Of a DNA stretch of 64,000 nucleotides, positions 24,599 to 46,822 are shown piece by piece (the stretch's first letter is position 1; every line of letters begins with the position of its first letter). Origin of the DNA: Sinomonas sp. R1AF57. GTDB taxonomy: Bacteria > Actinomycetota > Actinomycetes > Actinomycetales > Micrococcaceae. The stretch covers positions 3,750,808 through 3,814,807 of the forward strand of contig NZ_CP022463.1 in NCBI RefSeq assembly GCF_002224485.1, read 5' to 3'. The notes below the pieces were generated by a model that searched no databases, was not told the DNA's origin, and saw only the letters and a list, made by a program, of their open reading frames with translations. Made by a program: the position numbers and the translations under genes.

Positions 24599-26341
24599 TC
24601 ACCCGAACGTGAACGAGTAGAGTTCGACGCCGGCGCTCGCCTCGACCTCGAGGGTCCCCTCGCGCTGGGCCTCCCCGTCGAGGAGGACGTAGGAGCGGGG
24701 CGTGCCGCCGACGTCGAGCGTGCGCTCGCCGTCCGGCCCGCGGACCGTGAGCGTCCCGGTCCCGCCGACCACGGCCTGGACCTGGCGAGCGTGGAAGCTC
24801 AGTCGGACGCCTGAGTGGACCGGAGCGGAAGGCGAGGCGGGAGCGCCGGGCGAGGCCGCGGCGTCGTGCGCGTCCTCTGGCTCCCGTGCGACGATCCGCT
24901 GGGACTCGAGCTGCCAGTTGCCCGAGAGTGCGAACGAATCCGCGCGCTGCTGCGCCGGGTACGTGAACGTGCCGGGGCCGGAGCGGTAGGGCTCCGGCCC
25001 GGAGTAGTTGCCCTCCTTGGCGACGCCGAGGAACGTCTCCGGCGTGGTGCTGCCGGCCTGCGGCGCGGCGGCGGTCCCGTCCTCGACCGGCGCGGGGAGT
25101 GCGACGCCGGGTCTGGCCTGGGCGAGGAGCTCGCGCACGAGCGGCTCGGTGTCCGCGTACCCGCCCTCTCCCTGCTGGATGTGCCTGACGGTCCCGTTCG
25201 CGTCGATGAGGTACTGTGCGGGCCAGAACCGGTTCCGGTACGCCGTCCACGTCGCGTAGGAGTTGTCCATGGCGACGGGGTACGTGATGCCGTGCTGGCG
25301 GATGCCGTCTTCGACGTTGCGCTGCTCGCGCTCGAACGCGTACTCGGGCGTGTGGATGCCGACCACCGTCAGGCCAGCGTCGCGGTACGCCTCCTGCAGG
25401 CGGACGATGTGCGGCAGGGACCGCTGGCAGTTGATGCACGAGTAGGCCCAGAAGTCGATGAGCACGACCCGGCCGCGGAGGCCCTCGAGGGTGAGCGGGG
25501 TGGAGTTGGGCCACGCGGTGAGGCCGCGCAGCTCGGGGGCGGGCCCGCAGTCCTGGAGCGCGGTCGAGCCCTGGGTGCAGGCGCCGAGGCCGCGGTTCTC
25601 GTCGGTGACGAGGCCCCCGAGGTCCAACGGCGTGCCTGCGGAGGGGCGGAGGCTGTCCTGCAGCGATGCCGTGTAGTCGGGGATGAGTCGCTGCAGCGCC
25701 GCCGGGACGTCGAGGATGAGGCCTGCGGCGAGGGCGAGCATCAGCGCGCCGGCGGTGATGCGGATGCCGCGCTGGCGCCTGCGGAAGGACTTCAGCCGTT
25801 CGGCGAGGCGGCGGCCGGCGAGGGCGAAGACGAGCAGCGGCACCGAGACGCCGACGGCGAACGCGAGCGTGAGCGCGGCCGTCTCCGGCCCGATGCGGCC
25901 GGTGGCGCCCGAGACGGTGATCGCGGCGAGCACCGGCCCCGCACACGGCACGAACACGGCGCCGAGCGCCAGGCCGAGGCCGAATCCGCCGCGCCGCGCG
26001 TCGACCTGGCGCTGCGGGATCCACGAGAAGGGCTTCTCGAGCCACTCCTCGACCCGCGGGACCATGAGCCCGACTCCTACCGCGGCCAGGATCACGATTC
26101 CGGCCCAGCGCAGCACGTCCTGCGGGAGCCCGAGCGCCGAGAGCGCGAGCGAGCCGAGCAGCGTCACGACGCTGAAGCTCAGCACGAGCCCCGCGATCAC
26201 CTGGTACGGCCGCCACCGCGACGCCTGCCGCGCGCTGTCGAGGCCGCCGGAGAAGAAGATCACCGGGAGGACTGGCAGGATGCACGGCGAGATGCCGGTG
26301 ATGAGCCCGCCGAGGAAGCCGATCAGGATGTTCTCGCCCAT
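24599..26341 (-). CDS. dipZ: DipZ: CcdA-type membrane domain fused to thioredoxin
   Basis: A 580-residue fusion. Residues 1-220 are a CcdA-like six-helix electron carrier with the conserved Cys pair at C20 (ISPC) and C133 (VPCAG). A redoxin domain follows from about residue 275, with active site S-C302-I-N-C305. A C-terminal beta-rich domain runs from about 430. It passes reducing equivalents from the cytosol to extracytoplasmic thiols. In M. tuberculosis dipZ lies between mpt83 and mpt70 and belongs to the SigK regulon. Here a SigK-like promoter stands so close to the ATG that the mRNA may be leaderless. Confidence 0.93.
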   Translation of the reverse strand: MGENILIGFLGGLITGISPCILPVLPVIFFSGGLDSARQASRWRPYQVIAGLVLSFSVVTLLGSLALSALGLPQDVLRWAGIVILAAVGVGLMVPRVEEWLEKPFSWIPQRQVDARRGGFGLGLALGAVFVPCAGPVLAAITVSGATGRIGPETAALTLAFAVGVSVPLLVFALAGRRLAERLKSFRRRQRGIRITAGALMLALAAGLILDVPAALQRLIPDYTASLQDSLRPSAGTPLDLGGLVTDENRGLGACTQGSTALQDCGPAPELRGLTAWPNSTPLTLEGLRGRVVLIDFWAYSCINCQRSLPHIVRLQEAYRDAGLTVVGIHTPEYAFEREQRNVEDGIRQHGITYPVAMDNSYATWTAYRNRFWPAQYLIDANGTVRHIQQGEGGYADTEPLVRELLAQARPGVALPAPVEDGTAAAPQAGSTTPETFLGVAKEGNYSGPEPYRSGPGTFTYPAQQRADSFALSGNWQLESQRIVAREPEDAHDAAASPGAPASPSAPVHSGVRLSFHARQVQAVVGGTGTLTVRGPDGERTLDVGGTPRSYVLLDGEAQREGTLEVEASAGVELYSFTFG

Positions 26342-26347
26342 GGCTCC

Positions 26348-26377
26348 AGTTCGGCGCGGTGTGGGCGGGCGGATTGG
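26348..26377 (-). promoter_or_regulatory. SigK-like promoter of dipZ
   Basis: On the minus strand: -35 CCAATCC (26377-26371), a 17-nt spacer, -10 CGAACT (26353-26348). The same -35 and CGAA start of the -10 occur before the fasciclin and DUF4383 genes in this window. The -10 ends 6 nt before the dipZ ATG, so transcription should start at or next to the start codon. Confidence 0.6.
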
Positions 26378-40308: not shown

Positions 40309-41037
40309 ATGGCGTGGCACATCGGAACCTCGGGGTGGAGCTACGACCACTGGGAGCACACCCTGTACCCGCCGGGGACCCGGCCCTGGGACCGGCTGGG
40401 CCTGTACGCCCGCACCTTCTCCACCGTTGAGCTCAACGCAAGCTTCTACCGCTGGCCGCGCACGACGGCGTTCGCCTCCTGGCGCCGTCGGCTCCCCGAG
40501 GGCTTCCTCCTCTCGGTCAAGGCCCCGCGCGGCCTCACGCACGGCAAGCGGCTCTACGCGCCCGAGGCGTGGGCGGCCCGCATCGCGGCCTCGTGGCACG
40601 AGCTGGGGCCGCGCCGCGCCGTGCTCCTCGTCCAGCTCTCCCCGCACAACGCGCGCGACGACGCGCGGCTGGACTGGTTCCTCGGCAGCCTGCCGCCGTG
40701 GATCCGCGCGGCCGTCGAGTTCCGCCACCCGAGCTGGCACGATCCCGCAGTCTTCGACCTCCTGCGCCGCCACGGCGCGGCGTACTGCGTCATGAGCGGT
40801 GCCGGGCTGCCGTGCATCCTCGAGGCCACGGCCCACCACGTCTACGTCCGGCTCCACGGCCCCGACCACCAGCACCTCTACGCCGGCTCCTACTCGGATG
40901 CGGACCTCGACTGGTGGGCCGGACGCATCCGCGAGTGGGATGCCGCCGGGCACGAAGTCTTCGCGTACTTCAACAACGACGGCGGCGGGAACGCCGTCCG
41001 CAACGCCCTGACCCTGCGGGGGATGCTGGGCGGCTGA
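40309..41037 (+). CDS. DUF72 domain protein
   Basis: A 242-residue DUF72 (TIM-barrel-like) protein. The signature WHIGTSGWSYDHWEHTLYP opens it, followed by VELNASFYRWP, EGFLLSVKAPRGLTH and YFNNDGGGNAVRNA near the end. DUF72 proteins (YecE in E. coli) are widespread and of unproven function. It starts 2 nt after the SDR stop. Confidence 0.9.
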   Translation: MAWHIGTSGWSYDHWEHTLYPPGTRPWDRLGLYARTFSTVELNASFYRWPRTTAFASWRRRLPEGFLLSVKAPRGLTHGKRLYAPEAWAARIAASWHELGPRRAVLLVQLSPHNARDDARLDWFLGSLPPWIRAAVEFRHPSWHDPAVFDLLRRHGAAYCVMSGAGLPCILEATAHHVYVRLHGPDHQHLYAGSYSDADLDWWAGRIREWDAAGHEVFAYFNNDGGGNAVRNALTLRGMLGG

Positions 41038-41044
41038 AAGACGT

Positions 41045-41074
41045 CCAATCCGCTGTCGCGGCCGCTCCGAAGTA
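41045..41074 (+). promoter_or_regulatory. SigK-like promoter of the fasciclin gene
   Basis: -35 CCAATCC (41045-41051), a 16-nt spacer, -10 CGAAGTA (41068-41074), with the gene ATG at 41114. The same arrangement, CCAATCC-N16-CGAAGT, lies before the DUF4383 gene at 45490, and CCAATCC-N17-CGAACT before dipZ. It resembles the published mycobacterial SigK promoter (about CCATCC ... CGAATA, from memory). Confidence 0.65.
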
Positions 41075-41113
41075 CAGGTGCCAGCCACCACCCCGTGACC
41101 CAGGAGTGAAGCC

Positions 41114-41791
41114 ATGAACATCATCAAGCGCACGTCCGTCGTCGTCGGCCTCGCGGCCCTCAGCACGTTCGGCCTCGCCGCGTGCGGCGGGACGACGACG
41201 GCGAGCAGCCCCTCGTCGTCGTCCGCCATGTCCAGTTCCTCCAGCAGCATGGCGTCGAGCCCATCCGCGTCGGCGATGTCGAAGTCCGACCCGGCCGCGA
41301 ACCTCGTCGGCGCCGGGTGCGCGGACTACGCGAAGGCCAACCCGTCCGGCCCCGCATCGGTGCAGGGCATGAGCACGGACCCCGTCGCTGTCGCCGCCTC
41401 CAACAACCCGCTCCTGACCACGCTGACCGCGGCGGTCTCGGGCAAGCTCAACCCCAAGGTCAATCTCGTCGACACGCTCAACGGCGGCCAGTTCACCGTC
41501 TTCGCGCCGGTGGACAGCGCGTTCGCCAAGATCGACGCGGCCACGATCGAATCCCTCAAGACCGATGACGCCACGCTGAAGAAGATCCTCACCTACCACG
41601 TGGTCCCGGGCCAGATCGAGCCGGCCTCGATCGCGGGCGACCACGCCACGGTGGAGGGCCAGAGCGTGAAGGTCACCGGCTCCGGGAACTCGCTCCAGGT
41701 CAACGGCGCCAACGTGATCTGCGGCGGCGTCAAGACGGCCAACGCCACGGTCTACCTCGTCGACACGGTCCTGCTGCCGCCGGCGAAGTAG
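41114..41791 (+). CDS. Fasciclin-domain lipoprotein (MPT83/MPT70-like)
   Basis: A 225-residue secreted lipoprotein. The signal peptide ends in lipobox LAAC with Cys24, followed by a Ser/Ala/Met-rich linker to about residue 60. One fasciclin domain then runs to the end ([59 protein letters not shown]). It matches the mycobacterial MPT70/MPT83 antigens. The sigK-rskA pair follows directly, as in M. tuberculosis. A SigK-like promoter is 40 nt upstream. Confidence 0.92.
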
Positions 41792-41817
41792 TCCACAGCC
41801 CAGACACAAGAGCCCGA

Positions 41818-41859
41818 CGGCGGGCCGGGCGCGAGGCGCTCGGCCCGCCGGCCGCTTTT
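41818..41859 (+). terminator. Rho-independent terminator after the fasciclin gene
   Basis: CGGCGGGCCG (41818-41827) and CGGCCCGCCG (41841-41850) form a perfect 10-bp stem with a 13-nt loop, followed by GCCGC and TTTT (41856-41859). It separates the fasciclin transcript from sigK, so sigK needs its own promoter. Confidence 0.8.
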
Positions 41860-41904
41860 CCCGCGGGCGCCAGGATCAGGACACCGAGACGAGGGGGAAG
41901 GCGC

Positions 41905-42510
41905 ATGCCCGGACGTGAGACAGTGGTCTACATGCCGGACCACGACGGCGGGGCCGCTCCCGCACCGGACCTCGACGAGCTCATGGCCCGGGTCGCCCGC
42001 GGCGACCAGGCTGCCTTCGGGGACCTGTACGACGCCCTCGCGCCGCTCGTCCACGGTCTCGTGCTGCGCGTGGTCCGCGACCCGGCGCAGTCCGAGGAGG
42101 TCACCCAGGAGGTGTTCCTCGAGGTCTGGCAGCAGGCCAGGCGGTTCGACGCTGACCGGGGCCGCGCCCGGGCGTGGATCACGGTGATGGCGCACCGCCG
42201 CGCCGTCGACCGCGTCCGCGCCGCCCAGGCCGCCACCGACCGCGACCTGCGCCAGGGGATCCGCGAATACCGCGAGAGCTACGACGACGTGGAGCACCGC
42301 GTCGAGGTGGCGCTCGAGAGCGAGCGGGTGAACAAGGCCCTCGAGTCGCTGACCGAGGTGCAGAAGCAGGCGATCCGCCTCGCCTACTACGGCGGCTACA
42401 CCTACGGCGAAGTCGCCGACGCCCTGGGACTGCCCCTGGGCACTGTGAAGACCAGGATCCGCGACGGAATGATCCGCCTGAGAGACGTGTTGGGAGTGAG
42501 CCATGGATGA
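41905..42510 (+). CDS. sigK: ECF sigma factor SigK
   Basis: A 201-residue ECF sigma factor. Region 2 is ALVHGLVLRVVRDPAQSEEVTQEVFLEVWQQARRFD followed by RARAWITVMAHRRAVDRVR; region 4 is VNKALESLTEVQKQAIRLAYYGGYTYGEVADALGLPLGTVKTRIRDGMIRLRD. It matches SigK. The last 8 nt overlap rskA, which encodes its anti-sigma factor. The fasciclin gene just upstream is the expected target, as for mpt70/mpt83. Confidence 0.92.
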   Translation: MPGRETVVYMPDHDGGAAPAPDLDELMARVARGDQAAFGDLYDALAPLVHGLVLRVVRDPAQSEEVTQEVFLEVWQQARRFDADRGRARAWITVMAHRRAVDRVRAAQAATDRDLRQGIREYRESYDDVEHRVEVALESERVNKALESLTEVQKQAIRLAYYGGYTYGEVADALGLPLGTVKTRIRDGMIRLRDVLGVSHG

Positions 42511-43378
42511 CCAGCTGCACCTGCTGACGGGCGCCTATGCTCTCAACGCGCTCGACGACGACGAGCGCCGCCGCTTCGAGGGCACCCTCGCGTTCGGGGA
42601 CCCTACGGCGGAGGAGGCTCGCGAGCTCGCAGAGACGGCCGCGCTGCTCGCCGCGGGCACGACGCCGGTGGCGCCCCCGCCGGACCTCAAGGCCCGGCTC
42701 ATGGCGCAGATCGCCGTCACACCCCAGCTCGACGTCCTCGACGAGGGGTCCCGTCCCGACGTTGCGGGGTCCCGTCCCGCCGCGCCGGGCCCGGCACCCG
42801 CGGGAGCTGACTCCCAGGAGGTGACCCCCAGAGGGGGAGGTGGGGCGACGGTCGCCGACCTCGGTGAGCGCCGCCGTCGTGCGTCACGGTTCCCCTCGAG
42901 CAGCAAATGGCTCGCTGCGGCGGCCGCCGTCCTGCTCGTCGCGGCCGGAGGCGCCGGGGTGTGGGGCCTGCAGGTCCAGAAGCAGCGCGACGACGCCCTC
43001 CGCCAGCTCGCGGTCGCGGCCAACGCCCCGAGCGCGGGGATGGGCCGCATCCTCGCCGCACCCGACGCGAAGGTGCAGGAGGTCACCGTGCCCGGCGGCG
43101 GGACGATGCTCATCGTGCACTCGCAGACGCAGTCGGTCGGCGGCGTCATGACGGTGGGCATGCCCGCGACCCCGCCCGGCCACGTCTACGAGCTCTGGCT
43201 CGAGGACACCTCGGGCACCATGCAGCCCGCAGGCCTCATGCCCGGGGGCGGGGGCACCACGTGGAACGAGCTCACGGGAGGGATCGGATCCTCGACGGCG
43301 ATCGGCGTCACCGTGGAACCGGCCGGCGGCTCGCCCGCGCCGACCACGCCGCCGATCCTGGTCAAGCAGTTCTCCTGA
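42503..43378 (+). CDS. rskA: Anti-sigma-K factor RskA
   Basis: A 291-residue membrane anti-sigma factor. The cytosolic N-terminal sigma-binding domain starts LLTGAYALNALDDDERRRFE. One membrane helix lies near residues 138-156 (KWLAAAAAVLLVAAGGAGVW), and the C-terminal RskA domain follows (GMGRILAAPDAKVQEVTVPG, PPGHVYELWLEDTSG). It should hold SigK at the membrane until proteolysis releases it. A Pro/Ala-rich linker contains an in-frame repeat of GGGGTCCCGTCCCG (42745 and 42766). Confidence 0.9.
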   Translation: MDDQLHLLTGAYALNALDDDERRRFEGTLAFGDPTAEEARELAETAALLAAGTTPVAPPPDLKARLMAQIAVTPQLDVLDEGSRPDVAGSRPAAPGPAPAGADSQEVTPRGGGGATVADLGERRRRASRFPSSSKWLAAAAAVLLVAAGGAGVWGLQVQKQRDDALRQLAVAANAPSAGMGRILAAPDAKVQEVTVPGGGTMLIVHSQTQSVGGVMTVGMPATPPGHVYELWLEDTSGTMQPAGLMPGGGGTTWNELTGGIGSSTAIGVTVEPAGGSPAPTTPPILVKQFS

Positions 43379-43395
43379 AAGGTGCCGCGGCACGG

Positions 43396-43426
43396 CCGCG
43401 CCGGCTGGGAGGGGCGGCCGGCGCGG
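43396..43426. terminator. Hairpin between rskA and the APC permease gene
   Basis: CCGCGCCGGC (43396-43405) and GCCGGCGCGG (43417-43426) pair perfectly around an 11-nt loop, between two convergent stop codons. It could act as a bidirectional terminator, though no T-run is present. Confidence 0.6.
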
Positions 43427-45406
43427 TCAGCTGACGTGGATGCCGGGGCGGCGCTTCGGGTCCGGCTCGTGCTCGCGGATGATCTCCCGCACGACCGGCG
43501 GAGTGTCGCCCCGGCCCAGCAGCAGGTAGCGCATGAGGTGCGCCAGCGGGTTGCCCTCCGACCATTCGAAGTGCGCCTGGGGGAGCACACCCGTCGCATC
43601 GCGGAGCGCCAGGAGGATCGCGGCGATGGCGTTGGGCGCTGCAGGGCTCTGGACGCGAAGCACCCTGAAGACCCCGACCTCGACGCCGTGGACCTCGAGG
43701 GTGCCGCTGAACTTCGACGGGTCCGTGATGTCCACCTCGAGGAAGATCACGTCCGCGGCCCCCGGGACCGGGTTGATCTCTCGCTGCGCCAGCTCCTTCT
43801 CGGCATACTCCGCCTCATCCCGTGCCTGCGGCCGGTTCGCGATGAGGTTGAGGCGCCCGTCGTACTCCAGCGACTCGACGATGAAGCGCCGCGCGGCCTC
43901 GTCGAACACGATGCGGTCCGCGCGCAGCTCCGTGGTGCGCGTGATGCGCGAGACGAGTGAGACGACGACGATGCCCGCGATGAAGAGCGCGGAGATCGCG
44001 AGGCCGTCGGGCTTCTCGACCACGTTGTCCGCCAGCGCGTAGAGCAGGATCAGGCTCAGGACCGAGAAGGCCACGGAGGCGGCCCGCTGCCGACGGCGGA
44101 TGGCCGAAATGGTCACTGCGACCGCGCCGGAGACCATCATGGCCAGGACCCCCGTCGCGTACGCACCGGCCTGGGCGTTCACGTCTGCCCGGAATCCGAG
44201 CGTGATGAGGATGCTGATGGCCGTGTAGACGAGCACCACCGGCCTGATGTGCCGGGACCACTCGGGGGCCATGCCGTAGGAGGGCAGGTAGCGGGGCACG
44301 ATGTTGATGAGGCCTGCCATGGCCGAGGCCCCGGCAAACCAGAGGATGAGCACGCTGCTGATGTCGTAGACGGATCCGAACACCCCGCCCAGCCGCTCGT
44401 GCGCCAGGTACGCGAGGGCCCGGCCGTTGGCCTGCCCGCCCGGCTGGAACTCCTGAGCCGGGATGAGGAGGGTCGTGACGAAGCTGCTGCCGATCAGGTA
44501 GATGCTCATGATCACGGCCGCGGAGGTCAGCAGCTTGCGGGTGTTGCGGATGCGCGAGGCCATCTTCTCCTCGACCGTCTCGCCCCGGGAGGCGACGAGG
44601 GGCATCATGCTCACCCCGGTTTCGAAGCCGGAGAGCCCCAGGACCAGGAGCGGGAAGGCCAGGATGGCAGGACCCACGATCCCGGACAGCCCGCCGCCGC
44701 CGTTCAGGGCACCCCACCAGTCCGAGACGGTGACCGGATGGGCGAGCAGGTCCGCGAAGCCCACGCCGATGACCACGGCGTTGAGGCCGAGGAACGCGGC
44801 GACGAGGGGGATGGCCACGGCCACGGCCTCGGAGAAGCCGAGCAGGAACACACCGCCCAGGATCAGGAGGAGCACAACGGTGATCAGCACCGCCTTCCCG
44901 TCCAGGAGGGCATGCGGCAGCAGGGGGTTCTCGATCAGGTGCACCGAGGCATCGGCGGCCGAGAGCGTGATGGTGATGATCCAGGACGTCGCCACGAAGC
45001 CCAGGAGCACGAGGACGAACACCTTCCCGCGCCAGAAGGGCAGCAGGTCCTCGAGCATGGCCACCGACCCCTGGCCGTGCGGGCTCTCCTTGGCCACCCG
45101 GCGGTACATGGGCAGCATGCCCAGGAGGGTCAGCGCCACGATGAGCAGGGTCGCCAGGGGGGAAAGGGCGCCTGCCGCCAGGGCTGCGATGCCGGGAAGG
45201 TAGGAGAGGGTCGAGAAGTAGTCCACCCCGGTCAGGCACATGACCTTCCACCAGCTCTGCTGCCCGTGGTCCTCGGGGACCTCGGGGCCCACGGGCTGAT
45301 GGACCCGCTTCTCCAGCAGCCACCGCGTCAGGCCGCTCTGGGGCTTGGCGGGCTGAGCGGGGCCCGGCACACTTCCCGGCAATGAGTACCGAGGAGGTGC
45401 GCTCAT
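43427..45406 (-). CDS. APC-superfamily permease with C-terminal cytosolic domain
   Basis: A 659-residue transporter. About 12 membrane helices span residues 50-510 ([19 protein letters not shown] near the start, a typical APC helix 1; [16 protein letters not shown] in helix 6). A soluble C-terminal domain of about 140 residues ends in KRRPGIHVS. The family covers amino-acid and some cation transporters, and the substrate is not clear. AAGGAGA precedes the ATG at 45406. The longer frame to 45538 has no good ribosome site. Confidence 0.82.
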
Positions 45407-45489
45407 CGTCGTGTCTCCTTTGCGTGTCCGTCTCCCGCGCTCACTACCTGGAACACCGGCTGGTACGCGAAAGCGTATATGCGGCCACC

Positions 45490-45518
45490 CCAATCCGCCT
45501 GTGCGCCGGCTCCGAAGT
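45490..45518 (+). promoter_or_regulatory. SigK-like promoter of the DUF4383 gene
   Basis: CCAATCC (45490-45496), a 16-nt spacer, CGAAGT (45513-45518). The geometry and both boxes match the fasciclin promoter at 41045. Transcription would begin about 58 nt before the ATG at 45583. Confidence 0.6.
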
Positions 45519-45582
45519 GAGGATGCGGGCCACCGCACCGGCGCTTCGAGTCAGGGCGCCGGCCGACTCGATAGGAGCCACC

Positions 45583-46041
45583 ATGTCCACGTCAGTCCTC
45601 TCGAACCGCCGGACCGCCGTCCAGATCGCCGCGACCGCGGTGGGCGCCGTGTTCCTCCTCGTCGGGGTGCTCGGGTTCATCCCCGGCATCACCGCGGGCC
45701 CGGGGATCGGCCTTGCCGGCCACCACTCCGAGGCCTTCCTCCTGGGCCTGTTCCAGGTCTCGGTGCTCCACAACGTCGTGCACCTGCTGTTCGGCGTCGC
45801 GGGGCTCGCGCTGGGCCGCTCCGTGGCCGGTGCCAAGGGCTACCTCGCGTGGGGCGGCGCGGTGTACCTCGTCCTGTTCGTGTACGGGCTCGTGTTCGGA
45901 GGCGAGACCGCCGCGAACTTCGTGCCCCTCAACGCCGCGGACAACATCCTCCACCTCGTGCTGGGCATGGGCATGCTGGGCCTGGGCGTGGTCCTCGGCC
46001 GCACAGCTGCGGTCCGCCCGGTGCATGTCACCCACCGCTGA
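45583..46041 (+). CDS. DUF4383 membrane protein
   Basis: A 152-residue protein with four membrane helices and the DUF4383 pattern: FLLVGVLGFIPGIT, VSVLHNVVHLLFGVAGLALG and NAADNILHLVLGMGMLGLG. These small actinobacterial proteins have no known function; the paired His in LHNVVH and ILH are conserved in the family. GGAG lies 6 nt before the ATG. A SigK-like promoter upstream suggests it belongs to the same stress regulon as dipZ and the fasciclin lipoprotein. Confidence 0.85.
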   Translation: MSTSVLSNRRTAVQIAATAVGAVFLLVGVLGFIPGITAGPGIGLAGHHSEAFLLGLFQVSVLHNVVHLLFGVAGLALGRSVAGAKGYLAWGGAVYLVLFVYGLVFGGETAANFVPLNAADNILHLVLGMGMLGLGVVLGRTAAVRPVHVTHR

Positions 46042-46100
46042 CGCAGTCCGGGGCCGGGGTTGCGTTCCCCGCCCTCCCCGAGCGCTTGCGGCACCTACGA

Positions 46101-46140
46101 CGGCGGCCGGCGCCTTCCCCACGGAAGGAGCCGGCCGCCG
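46101..46140. terminator. Strong hairpin between DUF4383 gene and trpF
   Basis: CGGCGGCCGGC (46101-46111) pairs perfectly with GCCGGCCGCCG (46130-46140); an inner CTTCC/GGAAG extends the pairing in the loop. It lies between convergent genes and is likely a bidirectional terminator, although the T-run is missing. Confidence 0.65.
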
Positions 46141-46195
46141 TGACATGCCGAGCGCCATGAGCGCCCAGGCGCGCATATAACCCAGAAAGAATTCC

Positions 46196-46822
46196 TCAGC
46201 CCCGTGCGGCCGCGATGAAGGCCCGGATGAGGGCCAGGTCCTTGACGCCGCGCATCGACTCGACGCCGCTCGAGACATCGACCCCGCCCGGGCCAAGGGC
46301 CGCGACGGCCTCGGCCACATTGGCGGGGGACAGGCCGCCGGCCAGGATCCAGAAGCCCGCGGGCGCCTCGGCGAGCTCCTCGGCGCCGATACGCGTCCCG
46401 GACCCAGGGACCGCGGCGTCGAGCAGGAGCCGGTCGGAGCTCGTCCATCCCGCGGCGACCCGCGCCCCGTACTCGCCGGCCGAGAGCGCGCGGATCACGC
46501 GGAAACCCGCGGTGCGCAGCGAGTCGGCGTCGGCCTCGGGCTCGTCGCCGTGCAGCTGCACCGCGTCGACGCCGGCCTCGCGCGCGAGCCGCTCCACCTC
46601 GTCCGCGCCCTGGTGCCGCACCACCGCGACCGTCTCCACCTCGCGCCCCGCGCGGCGGCCCGCCTCCCGGGCGACCGCCACGAGCGACGCGGCGCGCGCG
46701 GCGTCGACCGTCCGGGGGCTGCCGGCCGCGAGCACGAAGCCGAGCGCGTCCGCGCCCGCCGCGACCGCCGTCTCGACCGACTCGGGCGTGGAGAGCCCGC
46801 AGATCTTCACCCACACGCTCAT
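46196..46822 (-). CDS. trpF: Phosphoribosylanthranilate isomerase
   Basis: A 208-residue TIM-barrel enzyme of tryptophan synthesis that converts phosphoribosylanthranilate to CdRP. Marks are VWVKICGLSTPESVETAVAAGADALGFV with the catalytic Cys, DAVQLHGDEPEAD, LLLDAAVPGSGTR and WILAGGLSPANVAEAV. The gene is not in a trp operon here; its ATG overlaps the stop of the AlaX-like gene by 4 nt. Many actinobacteria use PriA for this step, so a separate TrpF is worth noting. Confidence 0.9.
   Translation of the reverse strand: MSVWVKICGLSTPESVETAVAAGADALGFVLAAGSPRTVDAARAASLVAVAREAGRRAGREVETVAVVRHQGADEVERLAREAGVDAVQLHGDEPEADADSLRTAGFRVIRALSAGEYGARVAAGWTSSDRLLLDAAVPGSGTRIGAEELAEAPAGFWILAGGLSPANVAEAVAALGPGGVDVSSGVESMRGVKDLALIRAFIAAARG

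Follow-up and report, generated by a model that had tools for sequence, protein, structure and literature searches.

Three nearly identical sequence elements lie on the two strands of a 64,000-nucleotide stretch, here called the window, of the genome of Sinomonas sp. R1AF57, a relative of Arthrobacter among the actinobacteria, and they raise the question of whether a single sigma factor, SigK, encoded beside one of them, reads all three as promoters. The original prediction held that CCAATCC followed by CGAA at 16 or 17 nt stands before a fasciclin gene, dipZ and a DUF4383 gene, and all three elements were present as written (Table 1). The element before the fasciclin gene runs on as GTA up to position 41074, and the gap between CGAA and the ATG is 42 nt for the fasciclin gene, 66 nt for the DUF4383 gene, and 8 nt for dipZ. 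The three matches compare with 0.02 expected in the window from dinucleotide shuffles, and with 0.04 expected and a maximum of 1 in 150 Markov-1 simulations of the N16-17 pattern. Judged from the sequence comparisons described below, the three sites are very probably promoters read by the bacterium's own SigK, with RskA as its anti-sigma factor, and would define a very small regulon of the fasciclin, DUF4383, and dipZ genes.

Table 1. Candidate promoters, genes, and hairpin of the putative SigK regulon, with positions in the window
Feature	Positions	Strand	Basis
Candidate SigK-type promoter, CCAATCC-N16-CGAA, before the fasciclin-sigK-rskA cluster	41045..41071	+	Pattern match; counterpart site in most relatives
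Candidate SigK-type promoter, N16, before the DUF4383 gene	45490..45516	+	Pattern match; recurs in relatives
Candidate SigK-type promoter, N17, before dipZ	26350..26377	-	Pattern match; recurs in orthologues
dipZ: DsbD/CcdA-like membrane part, thioredoxin-like part, C-terminal domain	24599..26341	-	Pfam
Fasciclin protein gene, MPT70/MPT83-like	41114..41791	+	Pfam PF02469; 1nyo
15-bp G+C hairpin, UUUU a few bases on, between the fasciclin gene and sigK	41818..41850	+	Fold energy
sigK (ECF sigma factor)	41905..42510	+	NCBIfam NF007228; closest structure 4nqw
rskA (membrane anti-sigma factor)	42503..43378	+	Pfam RskA_C PF10099
DUF4383 gene, probable membrane protein	45583..46041	+	Pfam PF14325, E 1.2e-39

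The regulator encoded in the window was readily identified. SigK scored 269.9 bits against a cut-off of 226 for the NCBIfam SigK model and carried both Pfam Sigma70_r2 and Sigma70_r4; its closest solved structure was M. tuberculosis SigK (4nqw_A, E 2.4e-48), followed by 2q1z (E 4.3e-25). RskA, whose ORF overlaps that of sigK by 8 nt, gave the sole RskA_C match in the genome (E 1.1e-25), and its RskA_N score of 26.5 bits was slightly under the cut-off of 27.0. The closest solved structure to the fasciclin protein was MPT70 (1nyo, E 1.2e-68). By eye, this protein has a lipobox-like LAAC, and it carries two cysteines besides that of the lipobox; in the alignment with MPT70, Cys69 and Cys203 each fall on a cysteine. 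The hairpin that separates the fasciclin gene from sigK lies in a 90-nt stretch that folded at -51.3 kcal/mol (z -3.6). A pattern scan did not call this hairpin a terminator on the plus strand; it is possibly a partial terminator, and being strong, it could limit the autoregulation of sigK. Pattern scans found neither a second exact site nor a sigma-70-type promoter before sigK, and no sigma-70-type promoter anywhere within 40900-46200. Partial read-through from the fasciclin gene into sigK would be expected.

The dipZ gene lies apart from this cluster. Its product was closest in structure to M. tuberculosis DipZ (5cyy/2hyx, E 3.7e-100), and a clear orthologue was found in 14 of the 197 genomes of a family sample; dipZ is among the less widespread members of the regulon. 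The fasciclin gene and dipZ are approximately 15 kb apart in the window and approximately 26 kb apart in one relative (G002), whereas in L121-L126, L035, L036, and L041 the two genes are divergent and no more than 0.4 kb apart. In L121, L122, L123, and genus g19 (L124-L126), they stand back to back, and an exact site precedes each of them. L120 and L128 also have them divergent: in L120 approximately 1 kb apart and with one mismatch in the dipZ site, in L128 with a weak site before dipZ. The proposal that the regulon is kept while the gene order is not was therefore borne out: the motif tracks sigK, as described below, mpt70 and dipZ of M. tuberculosis have close counterparts in the fasciclin gene and dipZ here, and the spacing of the genes varies.

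The position of the site relative to the dipZ start codon was then compared among 20 distinct dipZ genes (L116-L129, L032, L041, L073, L100, L177, and L178; L035 and L036 match L123 and L122). CGAA lay exactly 8 nt before the ATG in 16 of them. Twelve of these 16 had an exact -35 element at N16 or N17, L120 had one mismatch at N17, and L128 had one mismatch at N18. L177 and L178 carried CTCCGAATA before dipZ with an unrecognizable -35; they belong to the loci that we call mycobacterial-type (L176-L185, family f6, genera g40, g44, and g45), a label inferred from the 53-83% identity of their SigK to that of M. tuberculosis. The sequence of the 8 nt between CGAA and ATG varied among orthologues, and the dipZ genes devoid of the CGAA box (L127, L129, L073, and L100) had instead a GGAG-type sequence at an ordinary distance. 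Because the 8-nt gap past the -10 element leaves no room for a Shine-Dalgarno sequence at a normal distance, and because the box-less genes do carry GGAG, a leaderless dipZ mRNA is predicted wherever SigK drives dipZ. It might be argued that the fasciclin and DUF4383 sites alone are functional, with that of dipZ a relic or of secondary importance and dipZ itself expressed from a leadered transcript begun elsewhere. The spacing of 17, which is the rarer value, the GGAG just ahead of the dipZ ATG in this genome, and locus L129, where dipZ has no site although the sigK beside it does, all speak for such an arrangement. We nevertheless consider it improbable, since 12 of the 14 dipZ genes in the 197-genome sample had CGAA 8 nt ahead of the ATG (8 of 8 in the own genus, 3 of 3 in genus g19, and 1 in genus g28); 10 of these 12 had an exact -35 at N17, and the other two were L120 and L128 with the mismatches given above. 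Moreover, the GGAG is not conserved, being replaced by TACCCGGC in L124-L126, and it is the site-less orthologues that carry such a sequence at the ordinary distance. A second dipZ start in G002 (L214) has an exact site 8 nt before its ATG, and its open frame is 87 aa only.

Whether the element accompanies sigK was examined in 80 sigK loci (1,499,788 bases), the best 80 of 357 relatives, which were chosen by the SigK protein with the motif ignored. We refer to these loci as Micrococcales on the basis of record titles and general taxonomy, with differing titles for L041, L051, L058, and L100. They contained 101 matches, compared with 1 for the reversed pattern and a mean of 2.08 (maximum 9) for 60 permuted patterns. 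When spacings of 5-30 were scanned, 90 matches occurred at 16, 10 at 17, and 1 at 18; spacings of 11-15 and 19-24 gave no match, and 7 were scattered elsewhere. In the 1.5 kb ahead of sigK, the sense strand held an exact site in 69 of the 80 loci and one with at most one mismatch in 78, the exceptions being L073 and L103; on the antisense strand of the same 1.5 kb, the numbers were 6 and 7, divergent dipZ sites counted in. The wrong spacings of 12-13 and 20-21 gave 0 and 0 exact sites and 1 and 4 sites with one mismatch. In L033, L037, L038, and L042, no fasciclin gene was found beside sigK and the site stood directly before sigK itself, which supports autoregulation. Among the matches listed for the 197-genome family sample, N16 sites were found in at least 136 and RskA_C in at least 170. 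For 136 motif instances in L001-L111, the downstream ORF was labelled as one of the window's proteins in 92 and was not so labelled in 44; the latter were in part chance-like matches, in part apparent wrong-frame ORF picks, and in part CHRD-type, molybdopterin-domain, and 215-aa proteins.

These counts bear on the possibility that the sites bind another ECF sigma factor, or a repressor or activator, and that their linkage to sigK is incidental. The genome does encode other ECF sigma factors (five hits to SigK with E no higher than 1e-3), and dimeric regulators would also suit bipartite sites of fixed spacing. However, in 78 of 80 loci the site accompanies sigK although the neighbouring genes differ, wrong spacings yield almost none, its -35/-10 layout with 16-17 nt, facing genes and lacking symmetry, fits a sigma factor, and near-identical CCCATCC/CCGAAT elements occur at the mycobacterial-type sigK clusters; we thus regard recognition by a regulator other than SigK as very unlikely. 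Several further observations were made in the relatives. Sinomonas notoginsengisoli (L033) kept the site before sigK, while no fasciclin match was present in its 20.6-kb locus and dipZ was met nearby only as a 37-residue C-terminal match. L051, L058, and L041, titled Sporosarcina beigongshangi and Propionibacteriaceae, were among the closest sigK loci (68-70% and 84% identity), suggesting that these assemblies are mislabelled or mixed. In G018 (genus g5), a SigK-like site was found four times in nearly identical form, two of them (L216 and L217) before a small, apparently exported protein.

A scan of the whole genome (3,939,870 bases in one contig) for CCAATCC-N15-18-CGAA, as the original prediction had proposed, recovered exactly three matches, all in the window, and none for the reversed pattern. 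Matches occurred in every one of the 15 genomes searched in the genus, among them the present one, with 105 in total versus 5 for the reversed pattern; since the other 14 had 3 to 15 each, the restriction to three sites is a trait of this genome, and part of the extra matches in the relatives probably reflects chance. Because the shuffle rate scaled to the genome allows approximately one match for the N15-18 pattern, weight falls on the clustering within less than 20 kb, on the position facing genes, and on the recurrence at the same genes in relatives. That the three sites are chance matches to a loose consensus, for which this scaled rate might speak, is extremely improbable in view of their clustering at the predicted genes and their recurrence in relatives against low controls. 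When one mismatch was allowed in an extended N16 pattern, the own genome yielded 5 sites (2 perfect and 3 single-mismatch) versus 1 control. With up to two mismatches in the CC(A/C)ATCC form, 72 sites were found versus 31 for reversed controls, two of them in the one-mismatch class (L186 and L187), so weak targets or a composition bias may be present. L187 (window 35425) was dropped as a target, as ORFs on both strands cover the place without a clear gene start.

Beyond the fasciclin gene and dipZ, the DUF4383 gene is a recurrent predicted SigK target, with a site within 400 nt upstream in 11 of the 16 DUF4383 genes of the 80 loci. The mean folding z of the leaders was -2.5 for 14 DUF4383 genes versus -0.4 for 36 fasciclin genes (mononucleotide shuffles). 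The predicted DUF4383 mRNA starts with a small GTGCGG/CCGCAC-type stem-loop just past the -10 element (window 45523-45562; also L032, L037-L040, and L042), and an in-frame ATG at 45523 precedes the start used here by 20 codons. Between rskA and the DUF4383 gene, the minus strand encodes a 659-aa transporter-like protein (43427-45406), which matched no Pfam or NCBIfam model at E 1e-3 and is missing at this place in L032, L037-L040, and L042. Elsewhere, the site occurs before a CHRD-type protein, recognized in L020 by Pfam CHRD at 22.1 bits, slightly below the cut-off of 24.1, and judged by eye in L013, L047, L057, L215, and L221. This protein, which follows a SigK-type site in other genomes of the genus, was not found in the own genome by a search run without a positive control. 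Two further kinds of protein had the site in front of them: one encoded downstream of rskA with an Oxidored_molyb domain (assigned by Pfam in L050, E 1.3e-42, and by eye in the others), and one of 215 aa that matched no Pfam family (L014, L028, and L032). As the targets are apparently exported or membrane-bound and in part redox enzymes, a role of the regulon in envelope repair can reasonably be inferred.

The two regulatory proteins were further compared with those of more distant actinobacteria, using a phylum sample of 30 sigK loci drawn by SigK (L146-L175) together with longer stretches from ten of those genomes (L176-L185). Window SigK and RskA contain no cysteine. In an alignment numbered from the solved chain and from a M. 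tuberculosis SigK length that we take to be 187 residues, none of the 80 loci had a cysteine at position 133 or 183, whereas both were present in 18 of the 30 phylum rows. A Cys133-Cys183 disulfide is described as the redox control of M. tuberculosis SigK in a passage of PMC7509140, according to which the two residues are conserved in 56% of ECF19; the pair is therefore dispensable for the family, and a SigK devoid of it is not new in itself. As SigK and RskA both lack cysteine, the published thiol switch cannot operate here, the signal cannot be a disulfide within either protein, and another signal would be needed. The published redox switch thus cannot be the general mechanism.

Next, the third base of the -35 element was compared with the recognition helix of the sigma factor. 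Where readable, the mycobacterial-type sites had CCCATCC rather than CCAATCC, with the same spacing and -10 element (CCGAAT). CCCATCC-N16/17-CGAA stood upstream of sigK in 5 of the 10 mycobacterial-type loci; an exact CCNATCC site was missing in the other five, two of which (L176 and L181) showed a site with two mismatches. The third base of CCNATCC (N16/N17) was A in 100, C in 2, G in 3, and T in 0 sites of the 80 loci, versus A in 0, C in 6, G in 0, and T in 0 sites of the 10 mycobacterial-type loci. All 80 loci encode the recognition helix G-T-(V/A/I)-K-T-R. In the phylum sample, sigma factors with S/A/P-T-(I/V)-K-S-R had C in 8 of 8 exact upstream sites from 7 genomes, and those with G-T-x-K-T-R had A at 6 sense sites and C at 4, 3 of the latter accompanied by a divergent A site. 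Within the stretch covered, an exact upstream sense site was absent in 15 of the 30 phylum loci (8 of 13 S/A/P-type and 7 of 17 G-type); for the siteless S/A/P-type L153 and L154, the longer stretches L183 and L184 revealed an exact site further upstream. L159, L161, and L170 (genus g39, 8.9-9.9 Mb) have a CCCATCC sigK promoter and a divergent CCAATCC site upstream, and with both forms in these genomes, one sigma factor may read both. We hypothesize, from few independent lineages, that the third base of the -35 element follows the recognition helix. A broader proposition, on which we lean neither way, is that the Micrococcales and mycobacterial-type SigK regulons jointly keep dipZ on a leaderless mRNA begun at its own AUG, that the Micrococcales branch, without the SigK thiol pair, would have its signal sensed elsewhere, and that GT-K-T-R would read both A and C and S/A/P-T-K-S-R only C.

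For SigK binding, start sites, read-through, the relation of DipZ to the fasciclin protein, and the signal, we infer the following course. Membrane-bound RskA would hold SigK until an envelope signal frees it. RNA polymerase with SigK would then bind CCAATCC(G) and CCGAA, 16-17 nt apart, and produce the fasciclin mRNA, part of which would continue through the G+C hairpin into sigK-rskA as autoregulation. A separate mRNA would be made for DUF4383, and the dipZ mRNA would start at the ATG or within a few nucleotides of it. DipZ may in turn serve disulfide exchange for exported proteins, such as the fasciclin protein with its two non-lipobox cysteines.

Most of what is known of the SigK regulon comes from strong antigens of the tuberculosis complex; Sinomonas-type bacteria are environmental. 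As these bacteria carry the same kind of regulator and site together with a close fasciclin protein and DipZ, the regulon appears to be shared beyond mycobacteria, which suggests an old actinobacterial envelope system. Sinomonas-type bacteria would also be safer organisms for laboratory tests of what signal the system answers to, where its transcripts begin, and what DipZ and the fasciclin protein do. According to part of PMC9861118, SigK-dependent promoters precede each of mpt83, mpt70, and dipZ in M. tuberculosis, and their stimulus is obscure. A passage of PMC7509140 describes SigK sites as highly conserved in Actinobacteria and, with reference to Veyrier et al. 2008, adds that the mpt70 promoter is read by SigK of different species. 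With this conservation already published, the system described here belongs to a known kind. Among the matches listed in a search of titles and abstracts in the open-licence literature, we found nothing on SigK sites of Micrococcales; that literature likewise returned no joint occurrence of DUF4383 with a sigma factor or of leaderless with dipZ or Rv2874, and, among the matches listed, no M. tuberculosis SigK consensus.

Compared with known systems, RskA of the window begins with HLLTGAYALNAL ... LDDDERRRFEGTL, which by eye is near the AS19-1 consensus HTLAGAYALDAL / LDDERAAFERHL printed in a section of PMC7406223 for ECF19/AS19-1 class I. In a passage of PMC7509140, M. tuberculosis SigK is assigned to ECF18 and that of Yersinia to ECF19, so the ECF group label stays tentative on the parts of these papers considered here. 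The M. kansasii genes mpk83 and mpk70, which are light-induced, resemble the present fasciclin gene in having putative SigK sites, and dipZ of that species is not light-regulated, as far as the relevant part of PMC9861118 goes. With the M. tuberculosis SigK-RskA regulon, the Sinomonas system shares SigK, RskA, an MPT70/83-like fasciclin protein, and DipZ, the CGAA-type -10 element and the spacing of 16-17 nt (read in mycobacterial-type genomes rather than in M. tuberculosis promoters), and a dipZ with its own candidate promoter. It differs in that the -35 element here reads CCAATCC, against CCCATCC wherever a mycobacterial-type locus has an exact site, that SigK lacks Cys133 and Cys183, and that DUF4383 is an added predicted target and the fasciclin gene is linked to sigK.
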